Below are positions 35,201 through 62,200 of a DNA stretch of 64,000 nucleotides, piece after piece. The position numbers and the translations under genes are program-made. Positions within the stretch are counted from its first letter, which is position 1. Each line of letters opens with the position of its first letter. The stretch is from Tridacna crocea (lineage: Eukaryota > Mollusca > Bivalvia > Cardiida > Cardiidae). Location: NCBI GenBank assembly GCA_943736015.1, contig OX031068.1, positions 23,816,296 to 23,880,295 of the forward strand, read 5' to 3'. A model generated the notes under the pieces. That model was not told where the DNA came from and made no database searches. It was given only the letters and a program-made list of their open reading frames with translations.

Positions 35201-38200
35201 CCTCTGATGCATGTTAGAAAACTAGTCAGTGGCTTTGAAAAGAAAGTTATATCAGCACTAGTGTAAGAAAGCAAGGAAACACAAGGGTGGGTCACTGACT
35301 GCCCTGATATGACCTAAGATTTTATAATTGTGTTTTACACAAATACAAATATAAACCAAACTAAATTGGAAGTAATTGCAGACAACCAATTAAATGAAAT
35401 TCAAACGATCAACTTTGTTCTACAAAGCCTTCCCTAAAGATGATTGTTCGGTCAAGGGTTTAAGTGGGAAACAGTCTCCCAATATCTTGGTATATCAATA
35501 AGGTACAAGTCATTAGTAAAAATGCACACTTACAGATGTTACGTTACAAACAAAAAGAAGCTTACAAACTGCCTTGTGTATACATAGCAAATATTCAAGA
35601 AACAACAAGAATGCATGTGCCTATTCACATGATACATGTACTTGAAATACTCTCTCGTTTGTGTTAACCCTCTGCCTAATATGTGTTGCTCAGTGCACTT
35701 TTGTGGACAATTTTGTTGTGTGGTAACAAACCTTGGTCTGATATCTAGTCATTATGACTGCAGTTGCACTGGTATCAAACTGTGGTCGCCCAGCCCTGCC
35801 TATCATCTGTAGGACCTGTGTGTCTGAATACTCCTCATGACATCCCATATTGTAATACGTTGTAGACTTGATAATTACAAGATGAGCCGGTAGGTTGACA
35901 CCCATAGCTAGGGTGCTTGTGGCCACTAAAAAAGCAAAACAAAGTACAGTGTACTGACAATATTGAAATAAATAATATTGATACAAAAAATGACTAAACA
36001 GTTGTAGGAAAAATGTTCCCTTGTTTTTTCTTATTGGCAGATTCAAAAGAGTGATGCTACAATGAAAGTAAAAGTATTGCTGTTATTCATCAGGTGAAAG
36101 CTAAGTGTATAGCTCACTGCAAAGTAGTTGTTGTCTTCATTACCTTAACAGTTTTCACTTTCAACAAGAATAGTACCAAAATTTTGTCGCAAGCACACAG
36201 GTTTTTGAAGAATACCTTCCAAACAACATCCATAATTATGTTTTAACAATGTTTGTGATATTATTCTTTGCATCATTTTGATTCAATACATCAGAAAATA
36301 TACTAAGGTGATCCTAACAGAGATTCTGTTAAAAAAAAAAAATTGTAGAGCAAAAGGAATCTATCATCTATTGGAGACAGACTTTCAAAGATCAAAACAA
36401 ATGGACAAAAACAAATAATAGCATTGGTGAAGCAGCCACATAAAGATCGGTTCCTCATTGCAGAATGAGAATATATCCATTTCAATGCCTAAAACTTCTT
36501 TTTCTACCAAGTATTACAGTCTACACTACACTTCTCAAGAAATTGCCTTTAGAGCAAAAATTTCAAATTTTTACAAGATGGGTTGAACTACAGCATTGAA
36601 TCTCAGTATTCGTCCAGAGCATATTAAGTATTAAGAAATTTTTGAAAAAAAAATTCTAGCAAACATATTGTAATCATAAAAATAAAAGTCAGGATATACT
36701 AAACTTACACAGAACTGGTAAATCTCCATTTGCAAATATTTCCTCTACTGTCTTACGGTCTTGGAAGTCCATTCCAGCATGATGGTATCCTATACCTTTT
36801 ACGATCAGGTCTTAAATGAAATACATTGTAACAGTCATATCTAGTATGAAATATTCAGTCAAGTTGAGACCTTAAAACTTTACTCCATAGATACTCATTT
36901 CTATGCATTGCTTGTAGGAGCCTTTGGAAAACATTGTGGCAAAAGGTGAAATTGCTCGTGACGAGCAATTTCACCTTTTGCCACAATGTTTTCTATGCTA
37001 TCAAAAGGTGTCATATACACATAAGAAACAGCTTCATCTTTGCTGTTATTTAGGGTCAATTAGAGATACCATAGAAATGCCTTATGGGGTAAAGGGTTAA
37101 ACCAGTACTAAACAGTTTTGTGTTTGAACAAACCTGAGGCTTTTAACTCTATACAAACGATAAAATTTTAGACAGGTTCAAATTGAAAGCACTTGTATAT
37201 GACAAGACAAATGTCACTCAAAAATTGAAATTTGTTTCCAGCAGGATAGAAAACATTGTGGGAAAAAGAGAAAATGCTGGTTACCATTATTTTCTCCTTT
37301 CCCCACAATGTTTTCAAAACGTTTCCATCTCACTGTCAAAAAAACCAGGAATTGTTTGGTAAAAACAGCTTTGGTTAAAACTTAGCTGACAAAGAAGAAA
37401 TTCCTCATAGCCAGCATTTTCCGCCCCCCCCCCCTTTTTTCCCCCTCCTTGGCTTTTAGTCTTTCAAATTCAGCTCCCATTACCAGTGAGCCATATGCAA
37501 TTACTTCCAATACAGAAATACTCTGTAGCATGGTAAAGGGCTAGCTAATAAGCACAATTCTCATTTTGAATCCAATAGATTACCCAGACATTACAATCTC
37601 AAAAGTGTTTAGTAAGTGTTTTCACAAAATTTCACAGGTAAGATGCAAGATCAAATTGCATGTCCTTATCTACTGAAATAGCCAACTATCCAGATTGAAA
37701 ATTATTGGTACAAATAGTGTGAAGGCATCCATAAAGGAAAGCTTTAATATAGGTTTAGCCAAAAATCATTCAACAGTTAACTCTTTATCCCACAATTTTT
37801 TTGTACTCTACCAAATTGAAAGCATCTGCAGAAAACATAACAAATGTAGCCCAAGTGGTGATTTCTGTCTTTGATAGGGTAGAAAACATTGTGGGAACAA
37901 GAGAAAATGCTGATTACCATCATTTTCTCCTTGTAACCAGCATTTTCTCTTTTTCCATTTTCCACACTATGTTTTCAAAATGCTTCTTCTCCAGGGTCTT
38001 TAACACTTGGGATTGTTTGGTAAAAGGTTTAAGAAGTAAACTAGAGTTACCTCTAAGTTTAGAATCTTTGACATGAAATGATATATTCTGTAACTGTTGC
38101 CTGTGCTGACCACTCCTCACAAAAGAACTTTTCATGTCTTTAGCTAAGATATCTGCACCTTGTGTCACACTTTTTCTTGTTGAACAAAACTAGACAATAA

Positions 38201-41200
38201 AGTACATGAAACATTTCTCTAAAATAATTTCAATACCATAAGTAGAATATTTTAAATAACTATCAAAATGCAATCACTTTTATCATGCAGTAGATAAAGG
38301 TTTAGGCCCTTAATGAAGAGATTTTAGACTTGTGCAAGTTGACAGTATTAATGAGTTATGCTCTGTGAAGAGGGGGCTTATTGGATTTGCGAAAAGTATC
38401 GACTCATGTCAGCCTGCACTGCACAGTCTGCCTCTCAAAGAGTAAAAAGTATTGAGATAAAAGGAAAAAAAAAAGACATTCAAAATTCTGAGTGTAATCT
38501 CTTGAGAGTACCTTTGTAGATCGGGCTCATGTCCACAACCATCCTTAACACTATTCTTAGTCTTATTTTCAATAATTTTCTAAATATGAAAGGAAGACAA
38601 CTTCTGATTGGCTAAACCAAGTAGTTTAACCAATCAAAAGTTGTTTATTTTCTAAATCTAGAATAATACTACGAATAAAATTAAGAATGGCTGGCAAATA
38701 CCATCGAATGCAAATTTTGGTGGTCGGACCCTAAAGACATACTGTCTGATACAACTTTGAATACTCCCAAAGCAATCTAAGTTTTAGTATTTAGTCTTTG
38801 GTTTAACTCTTTACCAAACAACAAAACAAGAGGGAAATGAAGGCCCTGTATTGATCCACTGGTTGATAAGTAGAAAAACTACAAGCCAAACATTATAACA
38901 TTTGGCGAATTGGTTTTAAACAGGAAGACATACAAAATTTTCTTGTATAAAATCCTACAAGAAAGATATCCCCAGGGCAAATCCATTTTTAGCCACAAAG
39001 CTACAATTACTTGTACATGTACTTGAATCCTGCTGAAGATCCACTAGATAATGCCCCATACCAAATAAAACAGGTCTAGAATGTGTGTTTATAAACAAGA
39101 AGATTTTCAAAGTTTGCTCAATAAAAGGCCCTGTAAAACAACTTTACTCAATAAAAGGCTCTGTAAAACAAGAGACCAATGAGACAGTTAGGCCTTATGA
39201 TTAGCAACAAGAAGATTTATCAAGTTTTCACGATAAGAGCCTATGTAAGACGTGTGACCCCCTGGTGTGGGGCCAAACTTGACCCCCTCCCCCCCCCCCC
39301 CCAAGTTATAATTTGGGCCCTCTTGATAGAGATCCACTAGATGACTAGATGCAAAATCTGGTAGCCCTAGGTCTTATGGTTACATATGAGTAGATTTTTA
39401 AAGTTTCCGTACATACTTGGAAGCCCATGTAAAACTTGTGATCCCAGGGCAGGGCAAACTTTGACCCCAGGGCTACAATTTGGGCACCCTTTGTAGAGAC
39501 CCACAAGATCAAGCTACATGCAAAATTTGGTAACACTAGGCCTTATGGCTAGATGTGAGAGAATTTTGAAAGTTTTCCCCATATAAGCCCATGTAAAACT
39601 TGTGACCCCCCCCCAGAGCAGGAACACATTTGACCCCTGGGTTATAATTTGGACTGATTGTCAGTGTGCAGAAAATGGAAGAGGTCCACTTGATAAAACT
39701 ACATGCCAAATTTGGTAGCCCTAGGCCCTATGGCTAGGTAGAAGAAGAATTTTAAAGTTGTCCCTAAATAAGCCCATATAAAACTTGTGCCCCCACAACA
39801 GGGACAGGGCCAAATTTGACCCAGGGCTATGATTTAAAGAAACTTGTAGAGGTCTACTAGATAAAGCTACATGCCAAATTTGATAGCCCTAGGTTTCAAA
39901 CAAGAAGAGTTTTAAAGATTTTCACTATTTTTCAGTTTTGTTGCCATGGCAGACAGAGTTTTTGAAGGAGTACAATTCTTTAAAAAATTCTGAAGAGGAC
40001 TATAGGGGGGATCATTTCTGTGAAGTTTCATCAAAATTGGACAGGTAGTTTCAGAGACGAAGATATTTGAAATAAAAGTTACACATGCATGCACAGATGA
40101 ACGACAGACACCAGGCCACGACATAAGCCTGTTGGCCTTTGGCCAGTGGAGATAATTATAGAATGGTAAAAATTGAAAGCATTTGCAGACATCAAAATAA
40201 TTTTGACTGAACAATTGAAATTTGGCTTGGGAAGGGTAGAAAACATTGTGACCAAAAGAGAAAATGCTGTTTCCCACAAAGTTTTCAAAAGACTTCTTTC
40301 TTAGGGTTGTTAAGTTGGGATTGTCTTGTAAAGAGATAACATTGGTAGCATTCTGAGGTTAACAGAAAATAAGTCTACTTACTACAAGAGTTGGTTTCCC
40401 TTCACTGTATGTGTTGATGATTCCAGCTAGCTTGTAGTTCAAAGAAATGTCAAATTGAAATGCTGATTGTTTTTCAGAGAAATTGTAACCCAACACAACT
40501 TTTCTCAGCCTGACTGGGCGGACATTATCATCAAACCTAGAGAATGAAAAGAACAAAACAAAAAAAAATACACTGCAGTGTGACAGTAAGTACTACATTT
40601 GATTGAATAAATATATACTGCAACTATACTCAACTAATTCTGCAAGTTATCTTGGACTTCAGTCAAATGAAAAGAATAATATACTCAAAATAAATGGAGC
40701 AGGTATATTAAGATGGACTGCAAAAAAAGACATATTTCTGGTTTTATCAAGATGTCTCATGATATATGAAATACTGCAGGTTTCACACCACAAAGCATGT
40801 ATTATACAATCTGATTTTGTCTAAACCATCAATAAAAACAACAAAATGAAAAGAAGTCGCATTTTTAAAACAATTGCAAATCCACTGGTATGCCAGAAGA
40901 AACTCAGCAATTTTAAATGCAAAGATTAACATGTACGAACTAATCTACTGGAAAACTAGAGCTGTCACTGAACGTGACTTAACACCCCGCCAGTGCTTTG
41001 ACAGAAACAGGCAATTACCAGTATTTTGTACACAGACAGACAGGCTGACTCCAGTATACCCCCAGAAAACATTCGTTTTGCGGGGGTATGATAATGCAGA
41101 AAACAATTTGTAATAAGCAAAAACACAAATTTGCCCTTTGCTCAGAAATTTTGCTATATGCTAGCAAACTCCAGTGAAAAGTGTTATGCCTGGAAAATCT

Positions 41201-44200
41201 TCAAATGTAACAAGAGCGGCAAATTGTCGCAAGATACGCCCGTCTTACCCCAAGTTGTAAAGCTGGGGCATGCACCAGACAAAATTCAAGTATGAAAAAC
41301 AACAAAGGGCAATAACTCAAAAATTAAGCAAGCAAGAGTTGGGATTCCTGTGCACTGCACTCCCCATCAGTGAGATCTATCCACCCATGAAATTTCATAA
41401 CCGTAGCTAGTATAGTTTTGGAGATATTCACCGGACAAAATTCAAGAATAAAAAACGACAAAGGGCAATAACTCAAAAATTAAGCAAGCAAGAGTTATGA
41501 TTCTTGTGCACTGCACTCCCCCTCGGTAAGATCTATCCACCCATAACCCTAGCTACTATAGTTCTGAAGATATGCTCCGGACAAAATTCAAGTATGAAAA
41601 ACAACAATGGGCAAGAACTCAAAAAATAAGCAAGCAAGAGTTATGATTCTTGTGCACTGCACTCTCCCTCGATGAGATCTATCCACCCATAAAATTTCAT
41701 AACCGTAGCTAGTATAGTTTTGGAGATATGCTCCGGACAAAATTCAAGTATAAAAAACAACAAAGGGCAATAACTCAAAAATTAAGCGAGCAAGAGTTAT
41801 GATTCCTGTGCACTGCACTCCCCCTCAGTGAGATCTATCCACCCATGAAATTTCTTAAGTCTAGCTAGTATAGTTTTGGAGATATGCTCCGGACAAAATT
41901 CAAGTATGAAAAACAACAAAGGGCAATAACTCAAAAATTAAGCAAGCAAGAGTTATGATTCCTGTGCACTGCACTCCCCCTCGATGAGATCTATCCACCC
42001 ATGAAATTTCATAACCCTAGCTAGTATACTTTTGGAGATATGCTCCGGACAAAATTCAAGTATGAAAAACAACAAAGGGCAATAACTCAAAAATTAAGCA
42101 AGCAAGAGTTATGATTCCTGTGCACTGCACTCCCCCTCGATGAGATCTATCCACCCATGAAATTTCATAACCCTAGCTAGTATACTTTTGGAGATATGCT
42201 CCGGACAAAATTCAAGTATGAAAAACAACAAAGGGCAATAACTCAAAAATTAAGCAAGCAAGAGTTATGATTCCTATGCACTGCACTCCCCCTCGATGAG
42301 ATCTATCCACCCATGAAATTTCATAACCCTAGCTTGTATAGTTTTGGAGATATGCTCCGGACAAAGAACTGGACGCCACCCGCCCGCCACGGGTGATCCC
42401 ATAATACGTCCCGTCTTCGACGGGCGTATAACAAAAATGATATATAGGAGTGCTATGTAGAATTTTGTTTTATTAAACTTCAACAATGATTCATCACATT
42501 TGCAGAATAAAAACAGGTCCTTACAGACATACTTACTTATGGTATAACGCTGGACTCTTGTCTGTCCCAAGCCAAGCAGCAACCTACATGGTAAATAAGT
42601 ATATTTCATGCATTAATTTTGACAGAAACTTCTCAGTAAACTTTAAGCTTTTATTTCATGCTTTCTGGCAGGTTATCAAGAGATATCAGTAAAATATTTT
42701 TCGATATTTCATGGTTACAACTAGTGAAAATATAAATTTTCCTTAAATTTCTTGTGCTTGAAGTAATATTGTAATGTGTTGCTATGCGGCAGGGGTACAC
42801 CACGGGAATAATGTAAAAGAACTGTACTGGACTTTGATTAGGTTCTCCCCAGAAAGGGTTAAAGCCTGAAATAAACAGAATATTTGGGATTTTTTGGTAA
42901 AAGATCAAAATTTACTCCATTTTGTGAACATCATCGGTAATATTTTCAGTTGATGAAACATCTTTTTTCACCATTAAAAACAAATATCCTCTACTGTATT
43001 TATTTCACTGTAAAAGTAATAATTCCAATAATCTCGCACTTGAACGTATGTGAATTTCCCATGTGAGACTTTCAGATTATCAAATTCACTGCTCTTATCT
43101 GTGGTGTTGCATCTCTTTTTGACAACATTCACATTTTTCAGCTCTTGATTCTAAATTATTAGTAATATAAACATGATGGTACAATATCAATAATGTCTGA
43201 AACTATTACCTATACCCTAGAAATACATTATATAAAGGCATAAAAAAACCCAGTTTTTACTGTTTTTTGCAAAAAAGTGGAAAACTCTTTGCTTCTTAAC
43301 ATGATAGGGCATGTATTTCATCAATCAATTTTGGGTTAAGTTTGTGAAATGCATATCTTCCTTGTTACAAAAACACACAAATCATCTTCTGTGTATAGGT
43401 TTCACTTTAATCTAATTCTGTTTTATCTGTATTACTCAATAAATCTTTTTCACTCAGTACTGTTCTACTAACTGATTGTATTTAACACCATTCTCAGCAT
43501 TATTTCAGTCATATCCCGTAGGGGAATGAACCTATCCACATGCATTCCCAGATTTTCTGTACCAGTATGCTACCATCATCAAAACAGTGGTCAGCTGTGA
43601 GATAGGAATGAACCCTGTTGCCACAACTATCATCAAGCCTTGAAAAGACATTGGTCAAACTGGGAATTTTGAACCAGCACCCCCTAGTACAGTTCAAAGT
43701 AAGTTCATTAGTTTAACTCTTAACCAAATGAAAAAATTCAGACTTGTCCATACTGGAAACATTGAAGACGACAAAATAAAAGTGACTCAAAAATTGAAAC
43801 TAATGGCTTTAGAAGAGTAGAAAACATTGTGGGAAAAGGAGAAAATGCTGGTTACCAGCATTTTCTCCTTTTCCCACAATGTTTTCAAAAGCTTTCCCTC
43901 TCAGGGTCGTTAAAAGTCAGGATTGTGTAGTAAAGGGTTAAATAACTATGAATCTTATTCATACATCTTCTATATTTGTCAAAGTCGCCGACACTGCCAC
44001 AAATCTGAGGTCATGAAACTCATGTTTTCTGCCTGTCCCTGACCTTGACCTTGCAGCCTGTATGGTCTTCATCCTACTGATTACTCCTTCTACTGTTGCA
44101 CCACGGGTCTCATCATTCAGAATGTGTATCTGTTGACAAAAATGAAAAAGTACAGCTATCACTAAACATGATTATAACCCTCACAAGCTCCTTGTCACAA

Positions 44201-47200
44201 AAACAGGTCTTTGTCAGAGAATGCAGAATCATGTGGTGCAAGAGTAGGAGTTGAAAAAAGTTCCACATGGCGATAATTCCACAATTCGCAGCAGGGTCAT
44301 GAAAATTGCACATACACAACTTCATTTATACAGGAACACTGTGTGTAAATTTGAGTTCAAGTGTTGGAGTATTGTCTACGAACAATCGGATAAACAGACA
44401 GGCAGACGGACAGACAGATAGACAGCCAATGCGATTCCAGTACACCTCTTCCACTTCTTTGTGGGGGGGTATAATAATTTTGCTATAACCTAAAATCACA
44501 TATACATGTACATGTATAATATAAAGGTTTGCTACCCTTCAAATTTTCAGAAACACTGATGGAAAAGATGCAATAGCCTCTTAAAATTCAATTGATTCTT
44601 TTGTTCAAAATTCTTTAGTACTACTCTGAATGCAACAATACTTTGTCTATCATTCAAATATTCATATTGTGTGTTTACTCTTCACTTGTCAATCTCAAAT
44701 TAGTTTGCTATAGATGATGAAAAATTAAAGGTAGTTTCTACTCTTATTGCCACAATATTAGGTGAAAACATTAGATTTGTAAACCTAGAAGCCTTGTTCA
44801 CTCCCTGATGCAGGCCTTAGTCATCTCGACAAGTCTTTGTTTAACCCTTTACCACACAATTCTGACTTTTGACAACCATGAGAAAGATAACCTTTGAAAA
44901 CATTGTGGGAAAAGGAGAAAATGCTGGAAACCAGCATTTTCTCCTTTTCCCACAATGTTTTCTACATTTTCATGTCAAATTTCAATTTTTGATTCACATT
45001 TGTTTTGTCATCTGCAAATGCTTCAAATTTGGACAAGTCATAAATTTTATCATTTGGGAAAGAGTTAAGGCACTGCAGAGTCCTTGTCTTGAACAGAAAA
45101 AAAATCATAAAAGATGTGAACAACCCAGCTGTTACTATGAAATTACAAAAATTCTGCTGCGAAAAAAATATAACATCCCTTTAACCCATTACCACACAAT
45201 CCCTACTTTTGAAGACCCTAAGAAAGAAGCCTTAGAAAACATCATGAGCAAAGGAGTAAATGCTGGTAACAAGCATTTTCTCCTTTTCCCACAATGTTTT
45301 CTACCCTTCCAAAGACAAATTTTAATATTTGAGTGACTTTAATTTTGTCGTCTGCTAAAGCTTTCAACTTTGAACAGTTTTAAATTTTGTCATCTGGTAA
45401 AGAGTTAAAACAAGTGTATAGAGACACCAATAACTATATCACTAAATTATTGTAATCCCAAATCTGAATAAGGACTTATGATGATGGAAACTCATAATTA
45501 CATATAAGTACATATTCAGCTATTCTGAGGTCATCATACACCATCATAATTATGACCTTCTACAGGCCCTGAACCAACCTTGATTCTTTAATTGCTTATT
45601 TAAACCTATTTACAGGGACAAATTTGCCCAAACCTAAACATTTTGTTTTCATATTGCCATCTACTGTCAATTTAAGAACAGTGTGACACCAACATTATCT
45701 TATACAAACCTCATCTACTAAGAACAGATAAATAGCATGGACTACAGATTTGTTGTCCTTCCATCTTCTAGTCATACTGTCCCACTTCTCCTGTAATAAA
45801 ATATCTGTTTTAATCATCTTAGTTTCCTTATTATGGCCTGCAACACGTGAAAAGAGGCATTCTGACGGTTACGTAAAGTATCGTATCTGATAAGTAAAGT
45901 ATTGTATCGATCAGCCTGTTCAGACAGCACAGGCTAATCTGAAACAACACTTTCCGTTTTTATGTATTTATCTGTTTTGCGCATGTCTAATGTAGTCGTA
46001 AAGTGCCGTCTCGTAATTTACGCAAATATATGAAAACATGTTTCATAGAATAATAATTATAGTGAAAGAAGCTGTGGCATTCATTTGAATTCTAAATTGC
46101 TTCTGTAATCATCTGGCTTAATTTTCAAGTTTCTAAAACGAAAAAGGGTCCACCATGGTTAGGGTATGGGCTTGGAAGAAGAATATCAATAAGGCCACTG
46201 TTTGAGACAATACTGTTGGAGGTGAGTGATCACCTGACATTAGAGGTTTTGGGTTTGAAACAAAGATGAATGGGCCAACCTTTGGAGCTACCCACATCAT
46301 GGCCACATTACTGGATATGCTTCCAGGGCCTGTATTCACCAACCATTCTTAAGAATGTTCTTTATCTTATTATCCAGAATTTTCTACATTTGTAAATAAC
46401 ACAACTTCTGATTGGCTAAACCATTTGGTTTAGCCAATCAAAGGTTATGTTACTTACAAATTTAGAAAAACTTTTGGAAAATTCTCAAGAATGGTCGGTG
46501 AATACAGGCCCTGGAGGCAATTATAAAGAGTGGTTGATCACATTCAAGTTAACCTTTTACCAAAAAATCCTGAGTTTTAACAACCCCAGGGTAGAGGCTT
46601 TTTGAAAACACTGTTACAAGGAAAAGTAGAAAATGCTGATAACCAGTATTTTCTACTTTTCCCACAATGTTAACTTCCCTGTCAATGAACTTTGTAGCAC
46701 AAAATCATTTGTTACAATTTCAGATTTGTCTTCTGCAGATGTGTCCAATTTAGAAGGGTCTAAAATTGGCTGTTTAGGAAAGATTTATGATAAAGTGGTT
46801 GAACTAGGCAGGTATTATTACATTATTGACAGATATGAATGGCATATAAAAACTATTCAATCAAACATCCCAGAGTCAAAGGTAATTTACAGATTCCATT
46901 TACAACATGTAGCTGAAAACAAAACTATAACTTACTGGTGTGGTCAGTACAATGTTCACTTCTTGCAGTAGGTAGAAATCTTCTAGATCTGTGTCCCCTG
47001 TTAGCTCCATCACTTTCAAACCAAGAGGTTCAAACTTCTCTCTCCAGTCTTGGAACCTCTCACTACATAAAGCTTTTATTGGGGCCACTATTCACAATGA
47101 TTACAAAAAAACTGTTAAGAGATGACAATTTTTAGATTTATCCATATTTCAAAGCTTTTGTATGAGGCAAAAGATGATTAGATTTTTTTCTGGAAGGTTA

Positions 47201-50200
47201 GATAAAAAGTGTGGAAAAGGAAAAATGTTAGCTAGCAAGGTTTTTGCTTTTGTTTATCCTTTATCAAACAGTGTCAATATTTATTAAACCCAAAAAAGTA
47301 AAGTTTTTAGAACATTGAGAGAAAAACAGAAAACGATGGTAAACAGCTTTTTCTCCTTTCCTCATAATGTTTCTAAAAACTGCTGTTTAGTAAAACTTAA
47401 AGGGTTTTAGAAGCCTTCTTCTACAAGGCAGGAAAAAGATTGGATGGTATGACAACCTATTGGCCTTTAGGCAAACTAAAATAAAGAGTCGAACAACTTC
47501 CATATATGATCAACTTACTGGATATGCAAACTGGTCTTGGTCACCTTGTCATTAAGACATCAGTGGTTAAATATTGATTTACACTTATTATGACTTAAGT
47601 TTGCAGCAATGGTAAGATTTTGTTAAGGGACCAAACCCTTTTGTGAGCTTGATAATTGGAGGGCAAAATATAGTAGACAAGAATATAATATGTAAACCTT
47701 TACCAAACAATCCCTGTTTTTTACGACCCCGAGATAAAAGCCTTGAAAATATTGTGCGAAAAGGAGAAAATACTGGTAACCAGCATTTTCTCCTTTTCCC
47801 ACAATGTTTTCTACCCTGTTGAAAAACAAATTTGAATTTTTGAGTTATGTTTATTTTGTCATCTGCAAGTGCTTTCAATTTGGACCAATTTAAAATTTTG
47901 TCATTTTGTAAAGAGTTAAACCACTGATTTCACCTAGTGCTCCTGTATTGTTTCAAGCTATTTTCTTGTAAGATGTAAACTTTGTGACAGGTTATTACAT
48001 GAAAAACCGACAACTGTGATGACAAAAATGATGCATACTATACACAATTTTGAAGTTTTTGTTATATGCTGGTCCCATGTTTGTGAGCAAACTGATAATG
48101 GCCATTTCAAACACTGCAGTTTTTCCAGAACCAGTAGGAGAACAAAGAACCAAAGATTTGTCTGTGTAGAGCACCTGTAAAAGAGTGTTGAAAGCAACAG
48201 ACAAACATCTATGGCGTAAACAAAATCTATCAAGAGGCTCTCAGTTGGTCTGAATAACTCGCCACGCAAAACAGTGACTATGGAATTCTATTCAATATAC
48301 CAGTAGTAGGTTTGTATGGAAAGAGAAAGGAAACTGAACCAAAGCATAAAAATAATCTTGCAATTAACATATTTCCTCTGAAGAGTTGAAATTCTTCACA
48401 AAACCGGTAAGGATGTCATATCAACCTAAGCCTGTCTTCTTCCCTTCCCCAGTCAAATCTTCACATTTGAATGGAAAGATAACTAACTCTACCTTGTGAC
48501 CTATAGGTATGTTCTCCATATGAAGTTTATGTTACAAAAAACATGTAAAATTTTGAAGAACAATATTTTTACTTTAAATTTGAATAAAAAGGAAATAATT
48601 AATAAAACAACAAAATCACTCTCACATGGGAAAAATCTCACAAAAAAATTTACTTTACCACTGCAGTTGCATGAACTTGATTTCATCAGACTGTTGGTGT
48701 GCAGTGTTTTTACTGCTGTCTGATCAATTTGCTAGGCCCCTTATTTCTTTCTACAAAATATATACACTACATACACATACATTGAGGCCAAAGTGTTTTG
48801 CTAAAACAGAGGTTGGTATTTAGCCACTATGGTAAAACAACTCTCTGCATATGCAGCTAGGTCTAGCATCACTTGATGATTATAAATACTGTCTTGGTAT
48901 TGTACTACCTTTAGTAGGAACCTAGTAGAGCATTTACCTCCTAAAACTAAGGCTATGAATTTTATTCAAACACTGGTAACCTTCTGATAGCTCATGTATC
49001 TATATTGAAATTTGATTGCAGGCAACTCCATATACTTTTGCAAGTAGTTTGGATCAAGTTCCAAAAGCACAGAATGTTCATTCTGATCCAGATCAACACT
49101 GTCTCAAATTCTGTATAAAATTCTGGCCAAAATAACATTGGCTTTTTCTTGCAAAATGAGCTGTAAAAAGGTTGAAGTAATTGTAACAATAAAACTGAAA
49201 GAATAAGAATGGTAAAGAACATACATCATCAAAAACTTTTGACTGTACAACATTGAAGTACTGAAACTTGAAGACACATCTGTACTGTTCTGGTGGAAAC
49301 ATGTCAAGAGCCAAATATTACAAAATTTAGTTTGAGCAGGTTCAAAAAAAGGTTTGAACTCTAAGAAAAACAAATTGTTGAATCGAAAGTGGATAAAAGA
49401 TAATCCAAAATAGAAAATTAATTATATTCCTTTTAGAGAAGTACTTTGACTCTAACCATTTCATTATCATGTCCATTTTATCTCATGTATAGTGCTTTTA
49501 CCATCCCATCCGATCGAATACAATCTAATCCAATCCCATCCTATCCCATCCCTTACATGCCATCCGTCCCTTCCATCCATCACAAAAATCTCTAGTTTAA
49601 TAACCATGATAAAGAAAACTTTTAAAAACAGTGTGAGAAAAAGAGAAATTTCTGGTAACCATCACTTTCTTTTTTTCCCCCACAACACTTTCTACCAAAT
49701 AAAAGACAGTTATCATCATTTAAGCTACATTTAATTTTTTTTTTTAAGGTACTTTTGAGACTGGTCTTGCCCAAAATTTTGTCACATGTTAAAAAGTTAA
49801 ACTTTAATAAATTTTATTTTCCATACTTCATGAAGATGTTGTCAAAGTTATATTCTGTAAACTTTTTATGAGATGAAATGAGTTTATTCACAAGGAAGAA
49901 AATAAGTAAACTTCTCAAACAGAAAGGATATGAATTTCTAAAATAGATCTTAAACACATTCCTTGTCTCATCTTGGTGGCTGGCACTGAAAATATAAGTA
50001 CATTGTAATGGATTGGAAATGTTGAATCACAGATGTGATAAGATTTACCTTCATGCTGCTAAGCACAACCCACTGACCTTTCATGGACAGTGTAGATTAA
50101 GATCAGAGTGCACAGATTGTGCATTCTGATCTATAAGAAGATATATTTTTCTAAAAATAAATTTGAAATAGCATCATCCAGGTTTTTGACTGTCAGCTTA

Positions 50201-53200
50201 AAAGTTTTTTCTAATTTACTTAGGAGAGATAAGGGTTAAGAAAATACATGTGCAATAAAAAATTATTTCCTTACCACAATATTTTTTATGTCTCCATACT
50301 GAGGGGAACAAGCAGACCACAAATTAACTCTTTACTAAACAATCCCTGGTTTTGTGACCGTTTGAGAGATGCTTTCTGAAAACATTGAGAGATGCTTTCT
50401 GAAAACATTGTGGGAAAAGGAGAAAATGCATTTTCTCCTTTTTGCACAAGGTTTACTTCTATGTCAAGGACAAATCATGCTATTTAATTCTTTACCAAAC
50501 AATAAAACTAAAGACTTGTCCAAATTGAAAGCATTTGCAGATGACAAACACGGCTCAATCTTCAAAGATTATTTTGGGAAGGGTGGAAAACATTGTGGTC
50601 AACAGGGATGCTTTCAAACTTATTTCCTGTGGATTCTTTAACTCTTTACCAAATGACAAAATTACACACTGGTCCAAACTGGAAACATTTAAAGCATTCC
50701 CAAACAACAAAATTAATGTGACTGAATAAATGAAAATTGGTTTGACAAGGTTTGAAAACATTGTGGGGAAAAGGAGAAAATGCTGATTACCAGCATTCTC
50801 TCCTTTTCCCCACAATGTTTTCAAAAGGCTCTTTCTAATGGTTGTTAAAAGTTGGGATTCTGTGGCAAAGAGTTAAATGAGGTAGCATGTAAAAATCTGA
50901 ACAGTGGCTATACATACACACCAAAGCTGCTGGTGTTTGAAAAACACTGTTTTCATCATACTTGTCTCTGACCTGTGGCATCACTCTCTTGGACCTCTGT
51001 GTTCCCATCTTGAAAATTTTCTTTTCTGAAAAATAAAATTCTCGGTTATTATAAAACATATAACAGATTTTCTTCTCTAGTATAACATTTCATTTCTGAA
51101 AACTAAAGTCTCATTTTCATAGAATGAAGTTTTCGTACCTGAAAAATAAAGTATTCTTACTGAAAAGCCTCATTTATAAATAAAAACCTAGTAATATCAC
51201 TTCTTTACTTGTAAACAGTACAAATAGACAACCCTAAAATCCTGCATCAGCTTCCCCTTCAAATCCTGGTATCAATAAAAGAAATTGCTACTTTTGCTGA
51301 TGTTAATTTATTGGGTCACACCTAATTAATGCTCAGAGAAACTGAGTTTTATCCAAAGCAGATATGTAAGATACTATCACAAAATGAATCACAATACTTT
51401 CAGATTTCAATCACAGTTGAAACAAATAAAAGCTTACTCACTGGAATGTGAGCTCTCTTTGCTCACTTCTTGAGATCTATCGACTGCTGTATTTTCACTT
51501 CTGGACATTTTAACTTTTCTTACTACTGGGAACTGTGATCCAAGATAAATCTCTTGACTGTTTTCTCTAGTTAAAGTTTTGAAAAAACATTACATTAACC
51601 ACTTTGTAAACATTATATCAGGTACAAAATTTTAGTATTGTCCATTTGAAAGCTTCTGTAAAAGACAAATCAAAAAGTGTTTGATTGATATGATTTCTTT
51701 TTTATACAAGCAATCATTAGGTAGATTGAAATGGTTTAAAGCTCAGATCAATAAACCTAGTTTCATAAAGTTCCATAGATTTTGACCCAAAAACAGCCAA
51801 GGAAAGTTATAAAACAGATGTGGTAAGTAGCCAAGCTTTGGTAGCACAGTCAGTGGCATGCAGGACTTGAGAACAGGGGTCGTGTGTTCCTGGCTCTGCA
51901 ATTTTCTTTCTGAGGATTGATGATAGTCAATACAACAGGATTCATCCCTCTCCCACCACTGACCATTGTGTTACGAGTCAGGCGTAACTAGAAAGAAGAA
52001 GCCAGCAACAAACGATAACAATTAACAGAATTTATTAACAAAAATATCAAATAAACAGTGACAATATTACAATAGTACAAAACAATACCTTAGACGTTAA
52101 ATTCAAAAGACAAACTATTCCAGTCTTAATTCCAATGTGATCCTGATCCAAACTGAATGTAATCTAAGCACACAAAGTAATCCTCACTTTAGTCTAGTCT
52201 GATCCAAATCCAAACTGAATATAATCCAAGCACTAATTATAGGACACAAACACAAGATAATCCCCACTGTAGTCTGGCAATCATGTATTAACTAGTGAAC
52301 ACCGAGATGTAAAGAGCTTTTCCTTTTATAATAACAGAGAAACTTCCAGAAAATTCATGTTAAAATCAGTTGCATAACTTCTAGTAAACAGATTGTAAAA
52401 AGGCCTGGAAACTTCCAGCACAATATTCTGCAAGAGAGAATCCAGTTCTAAAAATAGCAACAGGGGAAAACCATTCAAAAATAGATACACACATGAACAA
52501 AGCTAATAATAACTGGGCATGTACATAACACTTCCCCCCTTGAAAAGAAAAAGAAAGGTTTATGAAATAAATCTTTCTTTTTTGCAATATTATTTATATA
52601 CACGTATATGACACTTTAACTGAAGTATTACAAAGGAAATAACAAACACAAATATTAATTATTTAAGACAAATGAAAATAATCAAGGTAATGAAAGTACA
52701 ATTTAAAAATTCAGTTTGAACATGATTAAGGGAAAATGACTTTTTGAATTTCAAACTCTTGAAAGAGCATCTGGTATAATGTTATCTTTCCCTTTTATGT
52801 GTCTTATGTCAAGATTAAACTCTTGAAGCAATAAACTCCACCTCAGTAATCTTTGATTCTTATTCTTAAGTTTGTGTAGAAAACTTAAAGGGTTATGATC
52901 ACTGAATACAACAATTGGTGAAGTTGAAGAGGTTAAATAAACTTCGAACTGCTGGATTGCCAGAATTAAGGCAAGACACTCTTTTTCTATGGTAGAGTAA
53001 TTTTTCTGATGTTTGTTAAATTTCTTAGAAAAGTAACAAACTGGGTGATCAATACCATTATTATCTTCTTGTAAAAGAACAGCACCAATACCAACATCAC
53101 TTGCATCAACAGCTAATTTGAAACATTTGTCAAAATCAGGTGCCAAGAGAACTGGTGCTCTCTTTAGTATGGCTTTCAGACGATCAAATGCATCTTGACA

Positions 53201-56200
53201 TTTGTCATTCCATTTGAACTTTGTGCTTTTCTTAAGTAAATTTGTTAAAGGTTCAGCAATACCCGAGAAATTTTTACAGAATTTCCTGTAGTAGCCAGCC
53301 ATACCAAGAAATCGCATCAGCTGTCTTTTACATTTAGGCACAGGAAACTCAGAGATAGCATTGACTTTAGCTTCTAAAGGTTTAACTTGACCCTGTCCCA
53401 CAAGATGTCCTAAAAATGTTACAGTAGCATGACAAAATTCAGTTTTTGCAAGATTCACAGTCAGTTTCGCTTTACTGAGTCTGTCGAAGAACTTCCTGAT
53501 TCTTTGAAGGTGGTCACTCCAACTGTCTGAGTAGATGATGACGTCGTCAATATATGCATCACAGCCATCTAATCCGCATATAACGTTGTTTATAAGTCGC
53601 TGAAACGTTGCAGGAGAATTTTTCATCCCAAACGGCATAACTTTGTATTGGTACAATCCGTTTGGAGTAGCAAAGGCTGATACTTCTTTTGCTCTATCAG
53701 TCAGTGGAACTTGCCAGAATCCTTTTAGCAGGTCAAATTTGGTGACATATTTAGAATTTCCAACTTTGTCAATACAGTCATCAATTCTAGGTATTGGAAA
53801 AGAGTTTGTTTTTGTCACAGAGTTCACTTTACGATAGTCAGTACACATTCTATAAGTTCCATTTGATTTAGGTACTAATATACATGGTGAACTGTAATTA
53901 CTCTGGCTAGGTTCAATAAAGTCATTTTCCAGTAAGTATTTTATTTCATCTTGGAGGTATTTCTGTTTCAAAGGATTCATTCTATATGGATGTTGCTTTA
54001 TTGGTTTAGAATCTTCCACAATGACATCATGATAGATTTTATCTGTTCTTGTGGGGATATCAGGAAATAAATGTTCATATTCATGTATCAACTGTTTCAG
54101 CTCTTCCTGCTGCGATGGTTCCAAGTGAGATAGTTTGTTGTTAAGATTTCTCAAAATATCAGAATTCTCAAGTTTAGATGGACCAGGATCAGATTTATCA
54201 ATGAAGTCCGAATTTACTTCAAGATCAGATACATTTGATTCTTGTGGGACAGTGTTTACAACTGTAATTGGTTTTGAAATAGAGCTATCTCTGTCAAAGT
54301 ATTCCTTTAACATATTTATATGACACATTTGTTTGTTTTTACGCCTTCCTGGAGTATTAATTATATAGTTTAAATCACTTGTTTTCTTGTCAATAGTGTA
54401 GGGTCCAAAATATCTTGCCTGTAGAGGTCTGCCAGGTATTGGTAAAAGAGCAAGGACTTTATCACCTGGTTTAAATTTTCTATCAATAACATGGTTGTCA
54501 TATCTTGCTTTCATTTTGCCCTGAGACATTTTAAGATTGGACCTAGCAACCTCACATGCCCTAGACAGTCTATTTCTGAAGTCAGAAACATACTGTAGTA
54601 AATTCAAAGGTGTTTCATCATTTGAGAGAAATTTCTCCTTCAAAAGTTTTAAAGGTCCACGAACAGAATGGCCAAAAACTAATTCAAAAGGACTGAAACC
54701 AAGAGATTCTTGTACAGATTCTCTGGCTGCAAATAGTAACAAATGGATGCCCTCATCCCAATCTTTTTCAGTGTCAAAGCAATATGATCTTATCATATTT
54801 TTCAATGTCTGATGAAATCTTTCTAAAGCACCTTGACTTTCAGGGTGATAGGCGGATGACCTGTATTGCTTGATTCCTAATTCATGCATAACCTGTTGGA
54901 ATATACCAGACATAAAATTTGACCCTTGATCAGACTGAACTGATTTTGGAAGACCAACAAATGTGAAAAACTTTATAAGAGCTTTGACTATTGACTTTGT
55001 TTTGATGTTCCTTAAAGGAATAGCTTCAGGAAAACGTGTAGAAGTACACATAATTGTTAAGAGATACTCATTTCCTGACTTGGTTCGAGGTAAAGGACCA
55101 ACACAATCTATAAGTATCCTACTGAAAGGTTCATCAAAAGCAGGAATAGGTTGTAATTGAGCTTTGGGAATGGTTTGGTTGGGTTTACCTACCATTTGAC
55201 ATGTATGGCAAGTTTTACAATATTTAGAGACATCTGATTTGAGACCAGGCCAATAAAAATGATTAATAATTTTGTGATAGGTCTTGTTTATACCTAGATG
55301 ACCTGACATAGGACTTTCATGGGCTATACTTAGTATTTCATGACGATATGACTTTGGAACCACAATTTGGTGGTAAACAGCCCATTCATCATCAGCTGGG
55401 ACATCAAATGGTCGCCATTTTCTCATAAGAATCCCATTCTTTATATAGTAACACATTGGGACCTGTGAAATTTCATCTTCAGGTAAAGCCCTAAAAATTA
55501 ATTTTGAAATCTCAGGATCAGTTTGCTGTTCCTGGATAAGCTGTGACTTTGACAGCGTGTCGTGACCTTGGTCAATAGACCTTGGTGGAGAATGGCAAGA
55601 CATTGACGAGTCTGTCTGAGTATCAGACAAACTGGGATCAAGAGACTTTTTAATCTCATTATTAAAATATTGACCGATAAAAGTATCCGTCAAGTCAATA
55701 TCAGAGTTTGAGTTTTCCAAAATGGCCTTTTTAGCCATAGCTCGGGTAACTGCACAAGAAGGATACAAGTCAGGAATTTCCTGCTCGATAGGGTCATCTG
55801 TTTGACCTATATTTGGTGTGTCAGTTACAAGTGGATTTACCACAACCTTATCTCCAGCTAAGTCATTGCCTAGCAATAAATGGACACCTTTAAATGGTAA
55901 GGAAGGTTTAATACCAATAACCACAGGCCCAGTAACCAAATCTGATGACAAATTAACATGATGGAGAGGGATATTAACAGTTCCACACTCTACACCCTGA
56001 ATAAGGACACTAGTACCGGAAGAAGTCTTCTCAGAAAAAGGCAGTATATCTGCTAAAATAAGAGATTGAGAAGCTCCTGTGTCTCTTAAAATTTTAATAG
56101 GGGTAGGTGGGCAATTATCACCTGAAAGTGATACAAAACCATTCAACATAAATGGTTCAAAAATCTCCATAGTAGAATCAGACTTGGGTTTTGTGACTAT

Positions 56201-59200
56201 GTCAATTGTATTGGTTTTGATAGAAGACTGTGGCCTTGGTCTAAGAGTGGTGAGCCCTGTTGGTTTGGCTTCATCACTTTCTAACTTCCTTTTTAATTTC
56301 CAACATTCAGAAACAAGGTGACCAGGTTTCTTACAATAGTTACAAGTGGGTCGAGATAAGGGATATTGACTTTTGGTTTCACTAGTAGAATTGGGTTTGG
56401 GTGTATTGGATTGACTGGGCATGCCAGATGAATTACCAGACATAAATTTATTTTGGGGATGTGAGGAAGTAGGTTTGGGTTTATTAATAAAAGAAACTTT
56501 ATGTGTAAGGTAGTAATCATCAGCCAGACGAGCTGCTTCTTCTAAAGTTTCAACTTGTTTTTCGTCTAAGAATGTCTTAACATCAAATTGAATACAACGT
56601 TTGAATTCTTCAACTAACATAAGTTGTCTGAGTTTATCAAAATTTTGGTCTATTTTCTTAGAACAGCACCATCTATCAAATAACTGTTCTTTGTTTCTAG
56701 CAAATTCAACATGAGTCTGGTTAGAATCTTTTTTACAATTTCTAAATTTTTGTCTATATGCTTCTGGGACCAGCTCATAACCTTTGAGAATAAGTTCTTT
56801 AACAGTCTCATAATGATGACATTGTTCAACACCTAGTTGTGTATAAATTTCACGAGCTTTGCCTATCAAAACACTTTGCAGAAGTAAAGTCCAGTGCTCT
56901 CTTGGCCAATTTAAGTTTTCTGCAACTTTTTCAAAGTGTAGGAAGTATTTATCAACTTCTTTTTCTTGAAATGGAGGAACAAGCCTAATATGTTTTGTAA
57001 CATCAAAATTGTATTCAATCTTTTGCTTCGGCTGATTTGCTCTTTCTTGCATTTCTATTTCCCTCATTCTTAATTGAAATTCTCTCTCCTTCTTTCTCTC
57101 TTCCCTTTCTCTTTCCTTCTCTCTCTCTTCCCTTTCTCTTTCTTCTCTCTCCCTTTCTCTTTCCCTTTCTCTTTCTTCTCTCTCCCTTTCTCTTTCCCTT
57201 TCTCTTTCCTTCTCTCTCTCTTTCCATTCTCTTTCTTTCTCTCTTTCCTGAATTTCTAATTGTCTGATCTGAAGTTTTAATTCAAGTTCTTTCGAACTTG
57301 AAACTGACTGAACGTCAACTATCAGGGAAAGAGCATTTTCATTAAAAATTTCCTCATCAACAAAATATTGTACCAAAATGTTCTTAATTTCATGTTTACG
57401 CATTGAAGATTTTATTTCAGACAATTTATAGTGCTTAGCAAGATTAAGCAAATCAGTCTTTTTACCCAAATTCAATAACTCCACAGATGGTTCAGCCGTA
57501 AATTTATCTAAGTCAAAAGACATGTTTGTTTGTTGCTGGATTCAAGTACAAAATTATTATAATTACTGATTAGTAAACGAATGCGTTAGTCTTATTTTCC
57601 AATCGATGGTTAATCCCAAAAGGAAAACGAATGCGTTAGTCTAGTTTCCAATCCCGGACAAGCCCCCAATTTCTGTTACGAGTCAGGCGTAACTAGAAAG
57701 AAGAAGCCAGCAACAAACGATAACAATTAACAGAATTTATTAACAAAAATATCAAATAAACAGTGACAATATTACAATAGTACAAAACAATACCTTAGAC
57801 GTTAAATTCAAAAGACAAACTATTCCAGTCTTAATTCCAATGTGATCCTGATCCAAACTGAATGTAATCTAAGCACACAAAGTAATCCTCACTTTAGTCT
57901 AGTCTGATCCAAATCCAAACTGAATATAATCCAAGCACTAATTATAGGACACAAACACAAGATAATCCCCACTGTAGTCTGGCAATCATGTATTAACTAG
58001 TGAACACCGAGATGTAAAGAGCTTTTCCTTTTATAATAACAGAGAAACTTCCAGAAAATTCATGTTAAAATCAGTTGCATAACTTCTAGTAAACAGATTG
58101 TAAAAAGGCCTGGAAACTTCCAGCACAATATTCTGCAAGAGAGAATCCAGTTCTAAAAATAGCAACAGGGGAAAACCATTCAAAAATAGATACACACATG
58201 AACAAAGCTAATAATAACTGGGCATGTACGTAACAATTATCTCCACAATGGTTATGTGGGAAAGCAGCCAGTGGCTTGAAAAGAAAATTGTGTGGAGCAC
58301 TGATAAAAGACTTTCCAGGAGAGCATGGATAGTTGCACTGGCTAACACAACATAAATGAAATCATGCTGAAAATGGCGTTAAACACCAAAACAACCAATT
58401 AATCAATTAGATGTGGCAAGTAATCAAATTTCGCATTATCAACCATACTTGCATTTTCTATCAATTTAAAGACTTTTTTCTAGGTCAATTGATACCTGAG
58501 AATTGATTGAGTATATGTAAAGCAACAGTTAAAAATAAGCTGTAAACAAGATCTAGGCATGTACTGGTGCTTTCATTCATTATAAATTATCCTGTACTTT
58601 CACTGATTACCTCCTGATTCAAGTATGCACCAGAAAATTACAAGAATCCTCATGAAATATAAAATTATTAAAATAAACTCTAAATTAAAAAATGAATACA
58701 TCATGTGGTGACACAGATAGAAAATAGAGATATAAGTTATTTTGTACAATTTCACCTTTTTTCAGAATATTTCTTAAAGCTTTGCATTTAAGACATTTAA
58801 AAAAGGTTTGTAGCCATGTAGTATTAAAACAGCAATTACCTTTCTGAAACCACCGGTTGATAGCTCTCACTTTCTGAAAAACAAATGCAAACATGTTACA
58901 CATTTACAGATTTATGAAAAATTGCCTGGAAACAAGACATCAGTAAAATACACGATCATCATTACAAGTGAAAAATACAGTACAAAATTTGACAAGCCAA
59001 TCAAATGACGATGGTAATTACACCTCTCTAGAGGTAAGACAGAAAAAAGATATGAACTATCATATTATCCATGAATAATGATTGTGCAGTTTAGGTACAT
59101 GTATGTCATAGGTGAATGGCCAAACCCAAGTAATGTGAGAACTTCTGACCAGACCCCATTGCCAAAGTACATGTATCATTCCATGTTTTAGAAATTTTGT

Positions 59201-62200
59201 TGCATGAATCACTCACCTATGTTAACATGTTTATGGCAAGAAAATATGTTTGAAGTAAACTGGATATGTGACTGAGCAATTTCATAACTAGACACTCACT
59301 GCAACTTAAGACATAATTGCTTTGAAATTGGTGATCTATTTATCTCCTCTTTAACTGTAACCAGAGCTCCAGGTAAGAGGGAGTGATGCTATCTTAAATT
59401 TGTTATTTCTCTTCCAAACTCTATGTTGTGTGTATTCATCAAAATTGTCTCTGAGTACCCACAACATAGGGTTTAACCCTTTCCCAAACGACAAACATTT
59501 GGACTAGACCAAATTGAAAGCATTTGCAGACGACAATTCAACTCTTGCTGAAAAGATGATTTCTGTCTATGATAGGGTAGAAAACATTGTGGGAAAAGGA
59601 GAAAATGCTGGTTACCAGCATTTTCTCCTTTTCCCACAATGTTTTCAAAAGGCTACTATTCCAGACCCGTAAAAACCAGGGATTGTTTGGGAAAGGGTTA
59701 ATAAAGAATAAATCATATTTTCAATTTTGAAATCAATATCACTCCCTCTATCTGAAGCCCTGTGTCATTATGGATATGTTCTGTGATACAAAGTTTTTCA
59801 AGTATTAGAGGCAAACTTACTGTTTTCAGACTGAACCTCAAAACTGTTTGTGATACCTATCAAAGGCAGTTGGCATTGCTTTTGAGTTTCTGGAAGCCAC
59901 TGTGAAGGTCTGAGGTCTAAAAGGGTGCTATCTCCACATCCCAGCAAACTGTCTAAGTCTGGGATATCGCTGACCACAGGAGCTTCTGGTACTGTTGTGG
60001 TTTCACATCTTAAAAATGAAATACATGTATAAAGCTAATCTTGTTTAGTGCACAAGTACAACCAGTCTCCAGTCTCTAAAACAAGTGCCAGTCTATGAAT
60101 TTTCTAGCACTTTAAATAGTGGTTGCTTACTTATCTACCCCACAATCCAGAGTTTTAATGCCCCTGAAGAAGTTGGCTTTTGAACACCACTTGGAAAAGG
60201 GGGAAAATAACCATTATCAGCACTTTTTCCTTTTGCTACAATGCTTTCAACCCTTTCATAGCCACAACTCATCAAGGGAGCCACATTTAATTTGTTGCCT
60301 TCAAATTTCAATTTGGACAAATCTAAAAAATTTTTTCAGGTAAATGTAGAACTGCTTATTATAAATTTTGGATAAGACAGGTTTGATTGTATTCAACACT
60401 TAACCCTTTCCCAAACAAGCCCTGGTTTTTACATGTCTGCAGTAAAAGTCTTTTGAAAAGACTGTGGGAAAGGGAGAAATTGCTCGTTACTAGCAATTTC
60501 TCCTTTTCCCACAGTGTTTTCTTCTCTTTTTGAGAACTTTCTGCCATTTTCTCCAAATCTGAAATTGCCGTCTGCAAACTCTTTTAGCTTGCAAGGGTCA
60601 AAAATGTATCACGTGGGAAAGGGTTAAAGTAAGAAAGTAAAATCAATATGAAGCTTCAACTAAAAAAGTATAATTTATACCGCTGTGTTGCTAAGAATAT
60701 TTTAACCCTTTACTCCATAGATACTCATTTCTACGCATTGCTTGTAGGAGCCTTGGGAAAACATTGTGACAAAAGGTGAAATTGCTCGTGACGAGCAATT
60801 TCACCTTTTGTCACAATGTTTTCTATGCTATCAAAAGGTGTCATATACTCATAGGAAACATCTTCATCCTTGGTGTTATTTAGGGTCAATTAGAGATACC
60901 ATAGAAATGCCTTATGGGGTAAAGGGTTAAAGAGTAATGAAGGTTGTGATTAACACTTAACCACACAATTCCGACCTTTAACAACCCTGAGAAAAAAAAA
61001 AATGTTGAAAATATTCAGTGAAAAGGACAAAATGCTGGTAACCAGTATTTTCTCCAGATGATTTCCCCCAACATTCATTATCTCCCACTAGATGGCACTC
61101 TATGAATACTCATCTATCTAATTTAGGCATCCTGGGTACAGAACCAAACCACTTTCCTACACAACAACCATTACTTTGAATTTCAAACTAAAATAAACTT
61201 TTACTCAATAAAACGCTACCTCGTGCAATTCACTCAGCTATGGTCAGCAGTTTAGAGAAATCTGGAGCTAAAGCAGGTCACATTTCTCCTCAAACATATT
61301 GATAACAGCTGTTTTCTACATTGCTACTTTATAGAGCGTAATATTACAGTCTGCCCATTTTTGGGGCTAGTGATACGTCATATAAGACAGGTACAACCTT
61401 CAAAGAATATGAAATGCGCCGACAACGCCCCAAGATTTTCTCCCCCTCACGAAACAAATTTCAATTTTTCAATCACTTTTATTTTGTAGTGTGCTAAAGC
61501 ATTTGCAGACAACAAAATAAATGTGAATCAAAAATTGAAATTTGATTTGGACTTATAGTCTTAAGAATTTTGTAGTTTGGTAATGAGTTAAAACAACACT
61601 TCCTGTAGTCTATGTTGATCTAAAATATCCTCAAAAACAACAAAGTTTTGTTTTGTACTCTAAAGCTAAAGTCACACATTACGTAGTTGACCGTAGTGAG
61701 GAATGACCGTAGATAGCTGTAATTAATATATCAAACATAGTTGAACATAGTTACACACAGTTAACTGTAATTAAACATGGGAATGAACGTAGTTTGAACT
61801 TATGGTTTGCCCGTGCTAAGCACAAAATTTTCGAACATGTTCAAAAATGTTACAGTTAACTAAGTTGTTGTGACTGTTCTGTAAATAAATGTGAATCAAA
61901 AATTGAAATTTGATTTGGAAAAGGTAGAAAAGATTATAGGAAAAGGAGAAAATTCTGGTTACCAGCATTTTCTCCTTTTCCCACAATGTTTTCAAAGGCT
62001 TTTTTTCTCAGGGTCATGAAATGTCGCAATTGTGCAGTACAGCGTTAATGCATCTCTGCTATGCATTATACCAAGCAACTCCTCATACCATTATGGATTC
62101 AACAAGTCCATTTTGTGTAGCAACAGACCAACTGGTCTTAGGACATACAGAAAAATTGGCCCACAGCAAAAAGTTTTGGCCAGGTCAGCCTGTATGGACT

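Follow-up and report, generated by a model that had tools for sequence, protein, structure and literature searches.

Arm-to-arm copying appears to be one way in which new hairpin versions of a TTAA miniature inverted-repeat transposable element arise and spread in Tridacna crocea

We analysed a 64-kb stretch of the Tridacna crocea genome (C13:23816296-23880295; hereafter, the window), in an assembly of 1,048,827,098 bases in 31 contigs, of which C1-C18 (40-77 Mb each) jointly make up nearly the entire assembly and C19 has 57 kb. The window carries copies of a miniature inverted-repeat transposable element (MITE) of about 229 bp with TTAA at either end, laid out as a 107-bp long side, a 67-bp palindromic core and a 55-bp short side, so that the palindrome is off-centre. 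The core consists of two 33-nt arms around one centre base, and arm positions are numbered 1-33 along the main arm GAAAACATTGTGGGAAAAGGAGAAAATGCTGGT. Changes matched at the same position of both arms are called mirrored. Arm-to-arm copying appears to be one way in which new hairpin versions of this MITE arise and then spread.

An earlier note had read mirrored arm changes in five copies of the window (Table 1). All five copies are present and the mirrored changes are real, with small corrections. Relative to the main arm, the copy at 36872 carries mirrored 14 G>C, 21 A>T, 26 A>T and 31 G>C; its core and that of the copy at 60702 have 33-nt arms that are 100% complementary around a single centre base. 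The four mirrored changes claimed for these two copies stand for the whole arm, but the 20-mer quoted for them (positions 10-29) holds three, the fourth lying nearer the centre; the fifth change claimed for 60702 is 13 G>A. Of the separate set ascribed to 60400, positions 8 and 26 are mirrored, whereas position 31 is changed on both arms without matching and positions 6 and 18 each differ on a single arm. The mirrored G-to-T of 46549 is 20 G>T, which stands beside a left-arm insertion and amid further unmatched changes, and the mirrored one-base insertion of 50638 is there as described. The TTAA-to-TTAA span is 228-239 bp in 36872-37100, 60702-60930, 60400-60627 and 50638-50876.

Table 1 Copies of the MITE and its core in the window.
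Feature	Position	Strand	Details
A-type element	3385..3611	-	core 3440-3506; 12 G>T on both arms, unmatched neighbours
A-type core, then 50-bp tandem duplication	13802..13930	.	duplication of right arm and adjoining flank; 98% match at 13830-13930
A-type element	14802..15036	+	core 14915-14981
A-type element	32108..32334	+	core 32215-32281
D-subfamily element	36872..37100	-	short side first on + strand; core 36927-36993; mirrored 14, 21, 26, 31
Perfect main-type core	43820..43886	.	
A-type copy, decayed right end	46549..46790	-	core 46604-46671; mirrored 20 G>T; left end TTAA
A-type copy	50638..50876	+	core 50754-50822; mirrored one-base G insertion
B-subfamily element	59473..59701	+	perfect main-type palindrome 59580-59646
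C-subfamily element	60400..60627	-	core 60455-60521; mirrored 8, 26; one-sided 6, 18; 31 altered on both arms, non-matching
D2 element (D + mirrored 13 G>A)	60702..60930	-	core 60757-60823

The family is abundant genome-wide. A 25-base arm pattern with up to two mismatches gave 499,722 + 497,971 matches, compared with 1 + 0 for the reversed-pattern control, and a 24-base arm pattern with up to three mismatches matched 56 times in the window and in none of 100 shuffles. The ten outer bases of each arm are retained in 212,346 cores; genome-wide counts may be lower bounds. In 19 evenly placed 10-kb stretches (L009-L027) the MITE covers 38,704 of 190,000 bases (20%), and in the window 10,824 of 64,000 (17%), a large share for a single family of non-autonomous DNA transposons. 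Intact copies have TTAA at both termini, and their terminal inverted repeats begin with CCC, as is typical of piggyBac; in the seven subfamily consensus sequences the first 20 positions of the two ends, counting TTAA, agree at 15-18 sites. The TTAA target is also used by Kolobok. Judged by its ends alone, the MITE has a piggyBac appearance, with Kolobok likewise possible, and a piggyBac-type transposase would be its probable source of mobility. No gathering-level Rfam match fell within the window, and a known structured RNA was rejected as its identity on that ground.

Beside the main arm type A, the arms comprise A8 (A with 8 T>C and a flank type of its own, A7), E (26 A>T and 31 G>C), C (E with 8 T>C), D (E with 14 G>C and 21 A>T) and D2 (D with 13 G>A), and every change that defines A8, E, C, D and D2 is mirrored. 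Of 234 full cores, 14 were set aside because they had too little flank or were duplicates. Majority consensus sequences were built from the copies of seven subfamilies (A1, 53; A2, 30; A6, 4; B, 6; C, 8; D, 20; E, 4). In all 21 pairwise comparisons, their arms differed by 0-4 mirrored pairs and by no unmatched position. The arms of A1, A2, A6 and B showed 0 differences at 66 sites, against 11-23% divergence in their flanks (18-37 of 159-162 positions); if the arms evolved like the flanks, the chance of 0 in 66 would be 4e-4 to 3e-8 per comparison. The sole unmatched consensus position, 18, lies outside the seven subfamilies, in a satellite that is built from the core. This tandem array (L001:1354-1994 and L003:1354-1563, C1:25-42 kb) is spaced at about 144 bp, and its unit contains a MITE core in which the centre is changed and position 18 is unmatched.

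Could these types be chance resemblances or unrelated palindromes, the latter named by the earlier note as a refutation of its reading? The flanks of D and E, which over aligned positions are 41-53% divergent from those of the other subfamilies, would suit such an origin, to which we give hardly any probability. The types share their length, layout and TTAACCCTTT ends and have similar flank beside the core, and the pattern controls were near zero (1 + 0 genome-wide, 0 in 100 shuffles); we reject it on this likeness and these controls.

Within subfamilies, singleton changes were about as frequent in the core as in the flank in A1 (48/3377 vs 145/8497), A2 (53/1953 vs 149/4806), C (22/526 vs 62/1282) and E (10/264 vs 22/645), and the core is hardly protected within single copies. 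Shared changes were rarer in the core than in the flank (e.g., A1, 92/3377 vs 702/8497). Since the singleton rates are close and shared changes are rarer in the core, constraint acts mainly on the lineages that amplify. Selection for the hairpin, one of the two causes that the earlier note had offered, is supported for amplifying lineages, whose subfamily arms are identical while flanks are 11-23% different. We do not favour copying alone as the cause of arm conservation, reasoning that unbiased copying should leave the substitution rate unslowed.

Mirrored private changes exceed chance in individual copies. We compared the arms of 283 copies, of which 97 were among the listed cores with intact outer ten bases and 186 came from the window and L009-L027, permuting right arms within class in 2000 shuffles; three satellite copies of the 100 listed and four cores scoring ≤60 were left out. 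Over all 283 copies there were 56 mirrored changes against 21.6 after shuffling (56 was reached in 0/2000), and unmatched doubles at the same position were likewise raised (35 vs 21.0), as is expected of copies of unequal age. Among the 201 copies with ≤4 changes, mirrored changes numbered 13 vs 4.7 (0/2000) and unmatched doubles 4 vs 4.2, and in the 49 copies with 5-8 changes the corresponding values were 17 vs 9.4 (9/2000) and 5 vs 9.6. The A-type test (169 of 185 copies) gave 37 mirrored changes vs 21.6.

To separate inherited from recurrent mirrored changes, we chose 20 G>T, the transversion seen in the copy at 46549, and counted exact 49-mers genome-wide. Mirrored 20 G>T was found in 34 other, exact cores. 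One-sided 20 G>T with a T centre occurred 352 times, or about 704 if the other orientation is assumed to be equal, and a control double that is not mirrored (left 20, right 19) occurred four times. Given about 66,000 unmutated cores (extrapolated from 16 in 254 kb), 1.9 mirrored cores are expected under independence (1.2-3.3 over the Poisson range), so that the arms are alike beyond independence here as well as in the low-change copies above. Mirrored cores outnumber the control 8.5 times (34:4, P = 3e-7 for equal chance; 28 clusters vs 4, P = 1e-5). The best flank types of the 34, some of them weak matches, were A2 (14), A1 (9), A6 (6), B (2), A7 (2) and C (1). By simple flank distances they formed 28 clusters at 0.15 and 22 at 0.18, compared with 20-28 clusters at 0.15 (mean 23.4) when 34 full A-type copies were drawn at random, eight times over. 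As they are about as scattered as random copies, most of the 34 arose separately, though two on C7 (L068 and L069) are clearly related.

A spread of few mirrored cores by exchange between copies (ectopic gene conversion or recombination) would also place mirrored 20 G>T in differing flank backgrounds, and the very high copy number and the mirrored 8 T>C found in both A8 and C fit with it. Such exchange should leave cores at odds with their flanks. We scored a core as discordant when at least 2 of 4 diagnostic positions on either arm disagreed, and core and flank type were concordant in 139 of 139 scored copies (81 of 220 were unscored because flank type or orientation was unclear). With no discordant core, we do not favour exchange between copies and regard it as quite improbable.

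A second mirrored change behaved differently. Mirrored 24 A>C was present in 92 exact cores genome-wide, of which 20 were fetched with their flanks; these were A2 in 17, A1 in two and A6 in one, and the largest cluster at a flank distance of 0.18 held 17. With A2 flanks in 17 of 20, it was discarded as a second test of recurrence. Taken together, the 20 G>T and 24 A>C cases suggest the birth and then the spread of new hairpins.

In two copies the copied tract runs past the arm. The D copy L044 carries GTGAC in its long arm, and its right side repeats, as the reverse complement, a 41-nt tract made up of that same arm and 8 nt of long flank, with one mismatch near the centre; beyond this tract lies a remnant of the old short arm starting with GCCAC (position 13 unconverted), followed by the normal short flank. 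In L059, one of the 34 cores with mirrored 20 G>T, about 40 nt of long flank stand inverted on the short side with three mismatches, after which the short flank resumes, and the usual centre base is replaced by its complement. Both are the expected residue of a template switch with return, and since each was copied from its own opposite arm they also argue against exchange between copies. Among 256 flank-typed cores, some from picked loci, 176 were long/short, one short/short, none long/long, and 79 had an unclear side. The single short/short case is the element at L014:2414-2642 (core L014:2469), an older fold-back form whose arms extend over 88 nt and contain nine mismatches; a further stretch resembling the short side follows it. 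At the centre, changed bases were the complement of the usual base in 17 of 27 cases among 161 copies (P = 0.0015 vs 1/3, with inherited inversions possibly among them), which fits spacer inversion without establishing it. A diverged copy at L043:170-238 (C1:850600) has three mirrored differences (12, 13 and 18), a lengthened centre and near-perfect arms, and is a candidate for a multi-base copying event.

The D subfamily preserves one-sided intermediates. Of its 20 full copies, six carry 13 G>A on the long-side arm only, two on both arms and none on the short-side arm only. Seven of these 20 came from loci picked by arm pattern; in the 13 others the counts were three, two and zero, and among the later-picked loci L046, L047 and L048 have it on the long side only and L044 and L045 have it mirrored. 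Its presence on the long side only in several D copies indicates that the one-sided form itself was amplified, and the mirrored form derives most simply from it. The earlier note had stated that new hairpins arise with pairing intact, which does not always hold, as this one-sided stage shows.

Under selection alone, the arms would mutate independently and compensatory changes would be kept because an RNA or DNA hairpin is needed. This would account for consensus differences that are all mirrored and for the conserved arm sequence, and position 13 of D had a one-sided stage that would pair as G.T on one strand. We nonetheless consider it unlikely. Mirrored 20 G>T keeps reappearing in copies that are for the most part unrelated, 8.5 times as often as the control does, and the overshoot footprints require copying. 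No wobble intermediate exists for 14 G>C, 21 A>T, 26 A>T or 31 G>C, and such selection is implausible, we reason, in dispersed, decayed copies. Less likely again is a symmetric protein-binding site, in which the same transposase domain binds both halves and the arms track its specificity, pairing being a by-product. The ends of piggyBac and piggyBat contain short palindromes to which two C-terminal domains bind, as described in PMC11707139, and the core sequence is conserved, both of which fit with it. The 33 contiguous pairs with no unmatched consensus difference go beyond the 14- and 19-bp motifs described there, and recurrence in dispersed copies is left unexplained.

We therefore regard as probable the reading that template switching makes mirrored variants in a TTAA, piggyBac-like MITE and that amplification favours intact hairpins. 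One arm would serve as template for the other during DNA synthesis, in the replication or repair of individual copies. A switch would convert a one-sided mutation to a mirrored one or bring back the former pair, may also invert the centre base, and would sometimes overshoot into the flank; it would operate in individual dispersed copies across several subfamilies. A filter would follow, in which intact hairpins of nearly fixed sequence amplify best, leaving consensus-level differences mirrored and arms nearly static while flanks diverge. Because private 20 G>T changes are mostly one-sided and consensus differences all mirrored, this filter must account for that step. At other arm positions, copying rather than selection is probably the source as well, and the hairpin itself is presumably what amplification requires. 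It may act as a cruciform recognised by the transposase or a host factor, in single-strand folding during transposition, or as a folded transcript.

Several points weigh against this reading or narrow it. The genome-wide rate test covers 20 G>T only, and the figure of 704 presumes symmetry between the two orientations. The 20/19 control has its own weaknesses, as it depends on the rate of change at position 19 and three of its four hits lie within 9 Mb of one contig. Truncated or weakly typed copies among the 34 (e.g., L061, L072, L087-L089 and L091) inflate the cluster number. Mirrored 24 A>C was mostly inherited and amplified within A2. In the permutation tests, an excess is unclear in the oldest copies (>8 changes, 33 copies; 26 vs 22.1, 355/2000), and the A-type excess is weak (26 vs 19.9, 142/2000) once position 8 is removed because of the inherited A8 change. 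Overshoot copies number two, and the A-type centre taken alone is the complement in 11 of 21 cases (P = 0.06), a weak signal that may include inherited inversions. On the side of constraint, the consensus sets of A6 and E (four copies each), B (six) and C (eight) are small and fragile, and arm identity is less striking when the 33 arm pairs are the units (P = 0.02 to 2e-4 per comparison). D is an exception in that its core singletons (21/1299 vs 102/3232) run at half the flank rate. Lastly, long-lived source lineages have longer for copying, an effect that we cannot separate from the filter.

The earlier note's interpretation, that pairing is kept intact by copying or by selection, is thus partly supported. 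Arm-to-arm copying has direct support, from a mirrored change that recurs among largely unrelated copies and from the two overshoot footprints. The note's expectation of more paired than unpaired arm differences fails for private changes, with one-sided 20 G>T outnumbering mirrored by about 20 to 1 (~704 vs 34), and holds for the differences between subfamilies.

Elsewhere in the window, a local rearrangement at a palindrome (4500-4602) includes an extra arm-like stretch at 4541. An open reading frame (ORF) of 1596 aa (52751-57541, -) belongs to a long terminal repeat retrotransposon and has a SCAN match; its integrase domains (residues 728-900) precede the reverse transcriptase (residues 1223-1379), an order shared with Gmr1-type elements. 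A further ORF at 35690-36082 (-) has a Helicase_C match and is possibly a host-gene exon. Tandem arrays occupy 41270-42365 and 27378-28262, with periods of 156 bp and 166 bp.

Among known systems, piggyBac-type TTAA MITEs share the TTAA ends, the terminal inverted repeats starting with CCC and the small size, but the MITE here differs in that its nearly perfect 67-bp palindrome lies away from the ends and is conserved across subfamilies. Foldback-type Galileo elements have terminal inverted repeats, unlike the internal core of this MITE. Galileo is likewise rich in inverted repeats and structurally dynamic, and template switching is among the named sources of its defective copies, but its target duplications are 7-8 bp, as given in PMC4168063. 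Quasi-palindrome mutations in yeast are also among the closest systems. At short inverted repeats in 39 yeast protein-coding genes, template switching is described as homogenising arms and inverting spacers, with recurrence at the same repeat (PMC8604942); in the MITE a single palindrome is instead repeated hundreds of thousands of times, which makes the process countable, and a mirrored product can go on to multiply as a variant of the transposon. Template switching has also been described as a source of compensatory changes that creates and maintains RNA hairpins, with multi-base compensatory changes, a two-step path from mismatch to mirrored pair and inverted loops as its signature (PMC8794818), though in RNA genes and in a main text without the word 'transpos'. 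We found no report of template switching shaping a MITE family among open-licence papers searched with a few terms. The mutational process is known, and its role in MITE evolution looks new.

How perfect pairing persists in long hairpins as their sequence shifts is a standing puzzle, hitherto argued largely from RNA genes. In this MITE, hundreds of thousands of copies, mostly decaying freely as it appears, would allow the rates of one-sided change, copying, centre inversion and overshoot to be counted apart from selection; for the one change counted so far, mirrored cores are about 5% as common as one-sided ones (34 vs ~704, symmetry assumed). A bolder possibility, which we hold tentatively and at somewhat less than even chances, is that template switching is the main engine of hairpin evolution in the family, with mutations in source elements copied across and the resulting perfect hairpins founding subfamilies, in place of compensatory mutation. 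Arm-to-arm copying would in any case give a MITE a concrete route by which to renew its hairpin.

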